Origin: Saccharopolyspora soli
GTDB taxonomy: Bacteria > Actinomycetota > Actinomycetes > Mycobacteriales > Pseudonocardiaceae
Assembly (NCBI RefSeq): GCF_022678645.1
Contig: NZ_JALBWV010000024.1
Span: forward strand, 1-64,000
Direction of reading: 5' to 3'
DNA: 64,000 nucleotides
Within the stretch, counting starts at the first letter, position 1; each line of letters opens with the position of its first letter. The notes under the pieces are model-generated. The model was given only the letters and a program-made list of their open reading frames with translations. It ran no database searches and had not been told where the DNA came from. Shown here one piece after another: positions 9,709 to 36,984 of this stretch. A program made the translations under genes and the position numbers.

Positions 9709-9944
9709 CTTGCGTGGCGGTGCGGGTAGCGGAACCTCAGAGGCTTTCTCGTCTCCGGGATCCCCGACATCATGTATTCCGATACGTCGGGGCTGTCCTC
9801 GCGAGAAAGCCTCTGAGAACCCGCGGCGGTGCAAGTTGCGAGAGTGGGCCAAGCGCCTTCGGCGCTTGCGACGGCTCAGTCGGCTTGAGTTGCTTGTCGC
9901 GGTCGCGGTTTACCGCTGGAAGCGGCTTCGCCGCTTGCCTGCCG
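9709..9944 (+). repeat. Structured intergenic repeat, copy 1
   Basis: First of three ~240-nt copies (others 12949-13190 and 36741-36984). It opens with CTTGCGTGGCGGTGCGGGTA. A 16-bp perfect stem pairs 9736-9751 (CTCAGAGGCTTTCTCG) with 9802-9817. Inside is an invariant CCCCGAC/GTCGGGG stem capped by GTAT/ATAC. The 3' half holds AAGCGCC-TTC-GGCGCTT, GCGGT-TT-ACCGC and AAGCGGC-TTC-GCCGCTT hairpins. It starts 19 nt after the hspR stop, in the same orientation. It contains open frames, but similarity between copies follows the stems, not codons. Confidence 0.9.
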
Positions 9945-10088
9945 AAACTTACGTTTTGTCTGCTTCTTGCCGCCTCTTATCGTCTTTTCCTCTTGTCGCG
10001 TCTTCCTCGTGGGGGTGGCGGGTGAGGTTTGCGTCAACCTTCGCGTTCTTGCTCGGTTTGATGCCCTTTGCCTGGGGGGACAACCTTT

Positions 10089-11264
10089 TCAGTCCAGGGT
10101 GAAGGGGTCGTAGCGGATGTGGTCCAGCGGCGTACCGGCTACCAGCATCCGGGAGACCGTTGCGCGGATCATCGACGGCGAACCGCTGACCAGCACGTCC
10201 CAGTCCTGCCACGCGCCGTAGCGGGTCACCACCTCGGCGAGCGTGCCGTGCTCGGCACCCGAGACGGCCGGGTCGTTCTCCAGCACCGGCGTGATCGTCA
10301 GCCACGGGTTGTGCATCGCGACGCGTTGCAGGTTCTCCAGGTCGTAGAGGTCCTCGCGGGTCCGGCCGCCGTAGAACAGCTGCACGCGCGGGTTGTCGCC
10401 GTACTGCGCGAGGTCGTCGATGATCGCGCGCATCGGGGTCAGCCCGGTGCCACCGGCGATCATCAGGACGTCCGGCGAGGTCTCCCGGTCCACGGTCAGC
10501 CGACCCATCGGCGAGCCGATGCGCCACTGGTCGCCGGGTCGGGCGTGCCCGACCAGCGCGCGGCTGACCCAGCCGCCTTCCACGGCCCGGATGTGGAACT
10601 CCATGATCCCTTCGTCGTTCGGCGCGTTCGCCGGGGTCAGGTAGCGCCACAGCCGGGGCCGCTGCGGCACCTCGACGCTCACGTACTGCCCGGCCTGGTA
10701 CGGCACCGGGTGGTCGGGTCGGATGCGGACCACCGCGACGTCCCAGCTCAGCCGCTCGTGGTGGACGAGTTGGCCGGTGTACCAGGCGGGGCCGTCATCG
10801 GCGGCGGCGGCCTCGGTCATCGCGGAGGCCATCACGGTGTACGCCTCGGCCCAGGCGCGCTCGACGCTGTCGGTCCAGGCGTCACCGGCGTACTTCTTGA
10901 TCGCGGCGAGCAGCGCGGTGCCCACCGCCTCGTAGTGCGCGGCGACCACGCCGAACTTGCGGTGGTCGCGGCCGAGTTGGTGCAGGAACGGCAGCAGCTC
11001 GTCCGGCTTGTCGACCATCTGGATGACGTGCACGAGCGCCCGCAACAGGCGGCTGCGCTGCACTTCCATGTTCACCGCGAACAGTTCGCGGGTGGCCGGG
11101 GAGAGGCTGAAGAGCATGCCGTAGAAGAACCTCGCCACATCGTCGGCGTGCGGCTCCACCACGGCGAAGCTCTCGCGGATCAGGCGAACCATCTTGCTGA
11201 CACCGGAGTTCGATGGCTCGCGGTTCGGGGGTGGTCCGGGGCTCAGTACGGCGTTCGCTGTCAT
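10089..11264 (-). CDS. Flavohaemoglobin-type oxidoreductase (globin + FAD + NAD domains)
   Basis: A 391-residue flavohaemoglobin. The globin domain spans ~25-150, with a Tyr in RFFYGMLF at the B10 position and a probable proximal His in GRDHRKFG. It is followed by a ferredoxin-reductase-type FAD domain (PYQAGQYVSVEVP; the usual RxYS reads RYLT) and an NAD domain (MIAGGTGLTPMRAIIDDL). Classical members oxidise NO to nitrate. The variant FAD motif suggests a relative of the mycobacterial Rv0385 group, whose role may differ. The start is taken as ATG 11264 with a distant GGAG; GTG 11285 is an alternative. It is divergent from a flavin-binding protein gene. Confidence 0.88.
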   Translation of the reverse strand: MTANAVLSPGPPPNREPSNSGVSKMVRLIRESFAVVEPHADDVARFFYGMLFSLSPATRELFAVNMEVQRSRLLRALVHVIQMVDKPDELLPFLHQLGRDHRKFGVVAAHYEAVGTALLAAIKKYAGDAWTDSVERAWAEAYTVMASAMTEAAAADDGPAWYTGQLVHHERLSWDVAVVRIRPDHPVPYQAGQYVSVEVPQRPRLWRYLTPANAPNDEGIMEFHIRAVEGGWVSRALVGHARPGDQWRIGSPMGRLTVDRETSPDVLMIAGGTGLTPMRAIIDDLAQYGDNPRVQLFYGGRTREDLYDLENLQRVAMHNPWLTITPVLENDPAVSGAEHGTLAEVVTRYGAWQDWDVLVSGSPSMIRATVSRMLVAGTPLDHIRYDPFTLD

Positions 11265-11325
11265 GGTTCGGGGTAGTTTCTCCACGTTGGCGGTCGTACC
11301 CAGGCAGGCACACCACTACTTGCAA

Positions 11326-11370
11326 GCGTTCCCCGACGTCAGGTGGACCCTAACTCGTGCTCGGGGACGC
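11326..11370. other. Imperfect inverted repeat between divergent genes
   Basis: GCGTTCCCCGA at 11326-11336 pairs with TCGGGGACGC at 11361-11370 apart from one bulged base, around a 24-nt centre. It lies in the shared upstream region of the flavohaemoglobin and flavin-binding genes and could be a regulator site. I cannot assign it. Confidence 0.35.
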
Positions 11371-11484
11371 GTGTGCCTTGATGCCACTTTTGAGTGCTTT
11401 TTAACTACTACTCGTAGATAATGCATGGACCTGTCGGGGGAACCTAGTATCCACTCCTGTTGGCGGAAAGGGAGACGTGACACG

Positions 11485-35481: not shown

Positions 35482-35554
35482 CCGCCGAACCCGCAGCGTG
35501 TGAGGATGTACACAGGATTTGTCCGGTTCTGAATCCTGTCACCGGCTTTCCAAA

Positions 35555-35574
35555 AGTGCCCCGGCTGGGGCACT
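35555..35574 (+). other. Perfect stem-loop upstream of fba
   Basis: AGTGCCCC-GGCT-GGGGCACT is an 8-bp perfect stem with a 4-nt loop, between yciI (74 bp after its stop) and fba (116 bp before). It may end the yciI transcript or sit in the fba leader. Confidence 0.55.
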
Positions 35575-35690
35575 GTGACGCGAAAGTGTGGCTCCGGGTC
35601 GGAAGTGGCCGCTGGTCGCGGACACCGGCTCGTAGGATGCTGCGCAACTCCCCGTCACCACTACCAAACTCCACCCGAGGAGGACGACCG

Positions 35691-36725
35691 ATGCCCATCG
35701 CGACCCCCGAGGTCTACGCGGAGATGCTGGACCGGGCGAAGGCTGGCGAATTCGCCTACCCGGCCATCAACGTGACCTCGTCGGAGACGCTAAACGCGGC
35801 GCTGCGCGGGTTCGCCGAGGCCGAGAGTGACGGCATCATCCAGATCTCGACCGGTGGCGCCGAGTTCGCCTCCGGCACCAAGGTGAAGGACATGGTCACC
35901 GGTGCGACCGCGCTCGCCGAGTTCGCGCACGTGGTCGCCGCGAAGTACCCGGTGAACATCGCGCTGCACACCGACCACTGCCCGAAGGACAAGCTGGACG
36001 GCTTCGTCCGGCCGCTGATCCAGATCAGCCAGGAGCGCGTCAGCCGCGGCGAGAACCCGCTGTTCCAGTCGCACATGTGGGACGGCTCCGCCGTCGAGCT
36101 GACCGAGAACCTGGAGATCGCCCAGGAACTGCTGGCCGCCACCGCCCAGGCCAAGATCATCCTGGAGTTGGAGGTAGGCGTCGTCGGCGGCGAGGAGGAC
36201 GGCGTCGCCAACGACATCAACGAGAAGCTCTACACCGCGCCCGGCGACTACGAGCGGACCGTGGACGCGCTCGGCACCGGCGAGAAGGGCCGCTACCTGC
36301 TGGCCGCGACGTTCGGCAACGTGCACGGCGTCTACAAGCCGGGCAACGTCAAGCTGCGTCCGGAGATCCTCAAGCAGGGTCAGGACGTGGTGTCCGAGAA
36401 GCTCGGCCTGCCCGCTGGCTCGAAGCCGTTCGACCTGGTCTTCCACGGCGGCTCCGGCTCGCTGCTGGAGGAGATCCACGAGGCGGTCTCCTACGGCGTG
36501 GTGAAGATGAACATCGACACCGACACCCAGTACGCCTTCACCCGGCCCATCGCGGACCACATGCTGAAGAACTACGACGGCGTGCTGAAGGTCGACGGCG
36601 AGGTCGGCAACAAGAAGACCTACGACCCGCGCAGCTACCTGAAGGTGGCGGAGCAGGCGATGGCCGCCCGCGTGGCCCACGCCTGCGAGAACCTCAAGTC
36701 CGCAGGCCGCATGCTTGCGGGTTGA
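35691..36725 (+). CDS. fba: Class II fructose-bisphosphate aldolase
   Basis: A 344-residue zinc-dependent aldolase of glycolysis and gluconeogenesis. Zinc and active-site motifs are NIALHTDHCPKD (~85), LELEVGVVGGEEDGV (~162), VFHGGSGS (~248) and NIDTDTQYAF (~271). It interconverts fructose-1,6-bisphosphate with DHAP and glyceraldehyde-3-phosphate. ATG 35691 follows GAGGAGG. The 240-nt repeat copy 3 starts 15 bp after its stop, with DUF3151 beyond; both fba and a DUF3151 gene are close together in M. tuberculosis too. Confidence 0.97.
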   Translation: MPIATPEVYAEMLDRAKAGEFAYPAINVTSSETLNAALRGFAEAESDGIIQISTGGAEFASGTKVKDMVTGATALAEFAHVVAAKYPVNIALHTDHCPKDKLDGFVRPLIQISQERVSRGENPLFQSHMWDGSAVELTENLEIAQELLAATAQAKIILELEVGVVGGEEDGVANDINEKLYTAPGDYERTVDALGTGEKGRYLLAATFGNVHGVYKPGNVKLRPEILKQGQDVVSEKLGLPAGSKPFDLVFHGGSGSLLEEIHEAVSYGVVKMNIDTDTQYAFTRPIADHMLKNYDGVLKVDGEVGNKKTYDPRSYLKVAEQAMAARVAHACENLKSAGRMLAG

Positions 36726-36740
36726 GATCTTCCGACGCAC

Positions 36741-36984
36741 CTTGCGTGGCGGTGCGAGTAGCGGAACCTGAGAAGCCTTCTCGACTCCGGGATCCCCGAC
36801 TTATGTATGTGTCCGATACGCGGCGTCGGGGCTGTCCTCGCGAGAAGGCTTCTCAGAACCCGCGGCGGTGCCGGTTGCTCGGGTGGGCTAAGCGCCTTCG
36901 GCGCTTGCGGCGGCTCCCGAGCACTTGAGTCGAGCATCGCGGTGGCGGTTTACCGCTGGAAGCGGCTGCGCCGCTTGCCTGACG
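36741..36984 (+). repeat. Structured intergenic repeat, copy 3
   Basis: Third ~244-nt copy. The variable stem is CTGAGAAGCCTTCTCG at 36768-36783 pairing perfectly with 36841-36856. Inner CCCCGAC/GTCGGGG and GTAT/ATAC stems are present, as are the AAGCGCC-TTC-GGCGCTT and AAGCGGC-TGC-GCCGCTT hairpins. In this copy TGCTCGGG pairs with CCCGAGCA around the AAGCGCC hairpin; this extra stem is not evident in copies 1 and 2. It starts 15 nt after fba, same orientation. Confidence 0.9.

Follow-up and report, generated by a model that had tools for sequence, protein, structure and literature searches.

The 64,000-nt window analysed here (positions 1 to 64,000 of contig NZ_JALBWV010000024.1 of Saccharopolyspora soli) contains three copies of an intergenic repeat of about 240 nt (Table 1). 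Copy 1 lies downstream of a MerR-type gene, located behind dnaJ, which we take to be hspR; its stop codon (9688-9690) precedes the model start of the element by 19 nt, and a convergent flavohaemoglobin-like gene follows. Copy 2 is flanked by two MarR-type genes. The model start of copy 3 is found 16 nt past the stop of a gene that presumably encodes a class II fructose-bisphosphate aldolase.

Table 1. Coordinates of the three copies of the repeat and of their paired segments in the window
Feature	Position	Strand	Content or basis
Copy 1	9709..9944	+	domains A (model match 9710-9852), B, C
Copy 1, left arm of variable stem, CTCAGAGGCTTTCTCG	9736..9751	+	sequence
Copy 1, right arm, perfect complement	9802..9817	+	sequence
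Copy 1, domain B hairpin AAGCGCC-TTC-GGCGCTT	9851..9867	+	sequence
Copy 1, domain C hairpin AAGCGGC-TTC-GCCGCTT	9920..9936	+	sequence
Copy 2	12949..13190	+	model match 12950-13097
Copy 2, left arm, CTCAGACGTCTTCTCG	12976..12991	+	sequence
Copy 2, right arm, perfect complement	13047..13062	+	sequence
Copy 3	36741..36984	+	model match 36742-36891
Copy 3, left arm, CTGAGAAGCCTTCTCG	36768..36783	+	sequence
Copy 3, right arm, perfect complement	36841..36856	+	sequence

The original prediction, made from the DNA letters alone, had described these copies as near-identical except in a 16-bp stem whose changes are compensated on the opposite arm. Its coordinates were correct for all three copies, the left arms do vary at positions 3, 7, 9 and 10 of the stem, and every right arm is perfectly complementary to its left arm. 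We also found the inner stem CCCCGAC/GTCGGGG, the GTAT/ATAC pairing and the two hairpins that had been described. Near-identity outside the stem was an overstatement: pairwise identities are 85.6%, 83.5% and 88.0% over 236-242 aligned bases. All three copies fold more stably than dinucleotide shuffles, with z-scores of -5.1, -5.1 and -3.3 for copies 1 to 3.

The element is built around a conserved core of approximately 150 nt (domain A). Outer pairings of GCGGTGC lead to an internal loop of AAC/AAC; the variable stem comes next, then an inner stem that includes GGGAT/CTGTCC, capped by an apical loop. Either one or two AAGCGSC hairpins lie 3' of the core, the window copies being of the longer, two-hairpin form, and the whole body reaches up to ~300 nt and carries no transposase gene. 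The ends are inverted repeats of two classes: class I copies start with CTNAG-AGCCTGTCTTCGAACTCGTTTTG and finish with CAAAACAAGAACAAAGACAGGCA-CTNAG, and class II copies start with CTWAG-AGGGTGCGCGGATTGG and finish with CCAATCCGCGCGAGTT-CTWAG. When the class I end pattern was searched in the host genome, it matched 57 + 53 times by strand, against 0 + 0 for the control. Six loci hold short derivatives (57-138 nt) that have class I ends but hardly any core, or none, and degenerate forms of 224-230 nt were seen at three others. A second dispersed palindrome, GTGAAGGGCACC...GGTGCCCTTCAC, was also observed at gene ends, including the hspR locus of one other genome (G012), with the element sometimes nested at its centre.

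Further copies, on which the original prediction depended, are abundant. An initial DNA search found at least 40 places, every scored one of which matched, and a covariance model built from 40 copies then counted at least 150 copies in the host genome (83 on the forward and 67 on the reverse strand; weakest 93 bits), scattered over many contigs. Similarly, a core pattern allowing up to three mismatches hit 83 + 76 places by strand, against 2 + 0 for its reversed control. Within the genus, 21 of 22 Saccharopolyspora genomes contain the element and none of the 19 other genomes of the same draw does (at most the best 76 matches per genome), but the spread is patchy, one member having none and three having 4-9. 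Across Pseudonocardiaceae, 57 of 200 genomes and 13 of 46 genera were positive, 11 of the 57 belonging to Saccharopolyspora (at most the best 15 matches per genome), and a class-wide draw gave 2 positives among 394 genomes, both Pseudonocardiaceae (at most the best 7); these two large draws were run with stricter filters that lose weak matches. Among the genomes sampled, the family has thus been found so far only in Pseudonocardiaceae. Plasmid and phage collections held no match to the 151-base core of copy 3, and Rfam 15 gave none at the gathering score over the whole window. Relaxing the Rfam search (E up to 1, four loci) produced three sub-threshold matches, none convincing; a match of hvt-mir-H on the element's hairpin reached E 0.039 and 25.6 bits against a cut-off of 96.

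Does the element move? Pairs of copies at unrelated loci are 96-99% identical, and at most Saccharopolyspora sites checked the copy is absent in relatives. Reading the hspR locus throughout the genus revealed the element in 6 of 22 genomes, the five besides the window's own being confirmed by the model. Of five relatives syntenic with the window, G017 contains a counterpart of copy 1, G008 contains a rearranged counterpart, and the other three (G005, G006, G021) contain none. As read by eye, copy 2 is absent in all five relatives, which keep a GC-rich terminator-like hairpin that the window genome lacks; this suggests that the element may be able to do the job of that hairpin. Copy 3, which sits upstream of a conserved hairpin, is common to G008 only and, again by reading, absent in the other four. 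For five further copies, the element was missing at 13 of the 13 orthologous places read. At one site between convergent stops, TGATTCA in two of three relatives corresponds in the host to TGACTCAG, the element and then CACTCAG. Several class II copies are centred, by reading, in short host palindromes such as GGAAAC-TTA-GTTTCC, and these sites look as if the loop of a terminator had been hit.

The 47 copies in which both ends were recognised as the same class carry flanking bases that point to duplication of a T-N-A target. N agrees between the two sides in 27 of them, against 12.7 after shuffling (0 of 5000 shuffles as high), and the whole 3-mer agrees in 15, against 3.5. Because the agreement is direct, and complementary N (6 copies) falls below the shuffled level (13.0), it is not simply one more paired stem.

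Other variable sites were noticed in the same comparisons. At three loci of relatives, a palindrome around TTTCGCGCGAAA occupies the gap where the window genome has an element copy (the C38 site). In the window itself, 42177-42461 spans ~280 bp, opening behind a stop codon with a palindrome (GTGAGTGCGCAACC), against ~60 bp in G017, G008 and G021, and G005 bears an element copy at the matching site. Region 17425-19190 of the window is present in G008 and absent, or mostly so, in the other four syntenic relatives. At the hspR locus of G008, what appear to be two parts of the element face opposite ways, and one of them contains an unrelated palindrome.

We analysed the flanks of 129 of the at least 150 copies, with gene neighbours taken from a simple codon-bias gene caller whose individual calls may be wrong. 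An upstream gene on the same strand was found for 94 copies, and its stop codon precedes the model start by a median of 22 nt. In 57 of these 94 the left end is no more than 5 nt from the stop, when 16.1 are expected from uniform placement in the remaining gap (maximum 26 in 5000 simulations); the test allows 18 nt for the left end and assumes a 45-nt tail for all classes, which overstates the free space of longer copies. Such clustering is expected if insertion duplicates T-N-A: TGA and TAA, or TCA and TTA on the other strand, are themselves T-N-A, so that the stop would be regenerated. Selection against insertions elsewhere must also contribute.

Gap types were compared with a background drawn from the window and 20 slices of the five relatives. 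The 129 copies occupy 64 tandem, 51 convergent and 14 divergent gaps, against 70.1, 27.4 and 31.4 expected by length and 80.0, 22.8 and 26.2 expected by the number of gaps of at least 20 nt; convergent gaps are thus over-represented and divergent gaps under-represented. In tandem gaps, 43 copies are co-directional with the genes and 21 antisense (P 0.008). Of the candidates in the original prediction, which were a structured RNA of the 3' untranslated region (UTR), an element for processing or stability and a non-autonomous mobile hairpin, the first is borne out as to position; an RNA function would be a further, possible step.

We conclude that the three repeats probably represent a non-autonomous transposable element of Pseudonocardiaceae that has reached high copy number and is of the miniature inverted-repeat transposable element (MITE) type. 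The element is short, lacks a transposase gene, exists in many dispersed copies, has terminal inverted repeats and a target duplication, and is present or absent between relatives. The mobile hairpin that had also been among the first candidates is thus the one that the dispersed, highly similar copies and the empty sites favour. The family is apparently previously undescribed: open-access literature, Saccharopolyspora miniature inverted-repeats included, gave no description of it by title or abstract opening, a survey that does not establish its absence from print.

Which enzyme could mobilise the element? Transposase searches of the host genome returned 15 PF01609 and 4 PF13359 places, with overlap between loci. 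One of them, L385, is an intact-looking IS5-family insertion sequence (IS; NCBIfam NF033580, E 4.2e-59) whose ends start GAGCCTGTTCTTGAACTTG where those of the element start GAGCCTGTCTTCGAACTCG; they are near the class I ends, with a motif score of 0.79 (19 of 24 class I pattern positions). The start GAGCCTGTT was shown only by L385 and L386 among the transposase places. Looser ends (GAGNNTGTC) were seen in L387, which has TTT on both flanks, in L388/L394 and in L389. We saw no IS bearing class II ends among the transposase loci (best motif score 0.78). Part of the IS5 family makes a 3-bp T-N-A duplication, and we infer an IS5-type transposase as the possible partner in trans; the element differs from IS5 members in having no transposase, and the likeness that would link them is confined to the ends. 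L385 (999-2008) is itself bounded exactly, on either side, by the stop codon of a convergent open frame (TGA...TCA).

What keeps the stems paired? In the host genome, we aligned 103 distinct copies, drawn from 110 matches at 100 of 128 loci, and counted 160 double-changed cells, against 53 after shuffling and 5-17 when the partner was slid. Changes on both sides affect 8 pairs (5.7 shuffled, 4-9 slid), and 97.3% of cells are paired (93.0 shuffled). The signal extends to 38 distinct copies from other species, in 8 genera, where double-sided changes occur in 20 of 39 pairs, against 11.5 shuffled and 8-10 slid, with a covariation score of 0.288 against 0.097 and 94.3% of cells paired. Thus, stem changes in further copies are mostly, though not all, compensated, and the element shows the compensatory changes beyond controls that are asked of a structured RNA. 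Both alignments were fitted to the model and lean towards its structure, and relatedness alone can beat shuffles without any structure, against which the slid controls argue here.

One orthologous site shows compensation directly. Behind a gene that we take to be gatB, in a single genus (g49), the core is found in five of the seven sampled species having any match, on the stop codon in four and 15 nt behind it in one; TGA lies within the first bases of the element in four of the five, and the downstream gene is similar in the three species read further. Over these five species, 9 pairs changed on both sides, against 4.3 shuffled and 0-3 slid, with 88.2% of cells paired. Since these copies are orthologues, compensation occurs in place and not merely between amplified subfamilies.

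These data raise the possibility that the element is primarily a structured RNA with a role in the 3' UTR, as a terminator, stabiliser or RNase III site, conserved throughout Pseudonocardiaceae, and that its dispersal in Saccharopolyspora is secondary. We regard this as possible but rather less than an even prospect. The covariation across 8 genera and the conservation of the gatB copy are as it would predict, as are the invariant internal-loop letters GCGG-AAC-C / G-AAC-CCGC and GGGAT/CTGTCC, the five pairs with G-U in the majority of copies, the co-directional excess in tandem gaps, the copies that by reading lie behind stop codons in other genera too, and the apparent replacement of a terminator-like hairpin by copy 2. 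Antisense copies make up 21 of the 64 in tandem gaps and 14 of 129 copies are in divergent gaps, positions that such an RNA would not readily explain, and it leaves relatives without a copy at most Saccharopolyspora sites checked. A scan for intrinsic terminators with a U-run found no site at the three window copies. Moreover, selection acting on single-stranded RNA would be expected to favour G-U over A-C as the outcome of one-step changes. When the five pairs with a G-U majority are set aside, the counts of G-U against A-C cells are 31 against 39 and 22 against 26, a comparison without a usable positive control, as the tRNA set intended for it consisted of 8 ARAGORN candidates, mostly spurious-looking. 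Because G-U is not favoured over A-C among the mismatches, compensation by itself is no proof of RNA function; near-equality fits neutral decay of dead copies, DNA folding on either strand or template-switch correction between the arms. The original prediction was right that random drift would not produce such changes, but selection on RNA is not the sole alternative to it.

Alternatively, a template switch during replication or repair could copy one arm into the other, so that pairing persists with no selection for it. Such quasi-palindrome correction is an established mechanism in bacteria, and the strand symmetry of the mismatches is what it predicts; adjacent pairs also change jointly, as in CCC/GGA versus TTT/AAA between gatB orthologues. 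This symmetry is unspecific, as neutral decay after insertion would likewise give similar numbers of G-U and A-C. Arm copying should, in addition, erase mismatches in the internal loop and G-U pairs flanking the variable stem, whereas both persist in most copies. Overall, we consider arm correction a somewhat unlikely full account of the pairing.

Far less probable are REP/RAYT-type or other single-strand (HUH) elements, or attC-like recombination sites placed after stop codons. They would share the hairpin anatomy, the place right behind stops and a structure kept while the sequence varies, but the element measures 150-300 nt against 20-40 for REPs, its copies lie on both strands and on many contigs, and the T-N-A duplication points to a DDE enzyme; on size, scatter and duplication we set the attC-like and REP-like readings aside, without searches for a Y1 transposase, an integron integrase or attC motifs. 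Chance repeats or chance compensation in a GC-rich genome where palindromes are common can be dismissed, refuted as they are by the reversed, shuffled and slid controls, the end-pattern control and the fold z-scores.

Several observations nevertheless weigh against a transposable element, or against the functions discussed for it. Both ends are recognisable as the same class in only 47 of 129 copies, the outer ends of the window copies are poorly defined, and most copies read by eye from other genera, where the core is conserved, have repeats at their ends that are weak or invisible. N disagrees in 20 of the 47 copies scored for target duplication, and L385 is flanked by TGA and TCA with no direct repeat. 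We found no autonomous element sharing these ends. Of the 110 class I end matches, 100 were sorted (43 near known copies, 10 paired groups, 37 isolated), and 20 regions, covering all but one of the paired groups and 11 isolated matches, were read across the element or for up to 260 nt inward; these regions, where no transposase search was made, contained only internally deleted, truncated or degenerate elements. A gatB core kept at one place in five species resembles a resident functional element and not a transposon. A DDE element requires only its ends, so transposition leaves the strict conservation of the interior unexplained. Finally, one copy (C107:243748) lies within a tight gene pair with the ribosome-binding site intact, an awkward position for a strong terminator.

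What mechanism would account for a MITE with these properties? A DDE transposase acting in trans, perhaps of the IS5 type, would insert the element at T-N-A. Insertion at a TGA or TAA stop would duplicate the stop, leaving the gene intact and turning the element into its 3' UTR, and the centres of terminator-like palindromes would form a second target. The hairpin body might then be kept paired because pairing matters, either in the RNA 3' end or in folded DNA, with template-switch repair between the arms helping or mimicking this maintenance. A stronger proposal, which we offer tentatively and think doubtful as a whole, is that the element carries its own conserved, covarying 3'-UTR module: landing on stop codons by T-N-A duplication would be a gene-safe swap of 3' ends, the gatB copy of g49 would have been fixed and selected, and the family would amount to a mobile cassette, supplying either a terminator or an mRNA 3' end.

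Among known repeats, the closest parallels are bacterial MITEs with effects at the RNA level. ERIC, Correia, BOX and QMITE2, as described in a review (PMC10969869), are likewise short, dispersed, mostly intergenic and hairpin-forming; the review reports QMITE2 mainly in 3' UTRs and ERIC at 30-711 copies per genome. Our element differs from them in its sequence (not compared letter by letter), its larger, modular body, its T-N-A duplication often on stop codons, and its conserved interior covarying over Pseudonocardiaceae genera. REP/RAYT palindromes are dispersed and extragenic like the element, which is much longer, has different ends and presumably depends on a different enzyme.

Saccharopolyspora is the genus of erythromycin and spinosyn producers. 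If our interpretation is true, one element family rewrote the 3' ends of many genes in this genus, with insertion biased to stop codons. The presence and absence of the element behind the same gene in sister species constitutes a natural replicated experiment that allows a direct test of how a hairpin 3' UTR affects expression. The gatB copy, being inherited, is well suited to asking whether compensation stems from RNA function, DNA folding or template switching. Should the element indeed be a mobile 3'-end cassette, gene ends would have been rewired genome-wide.

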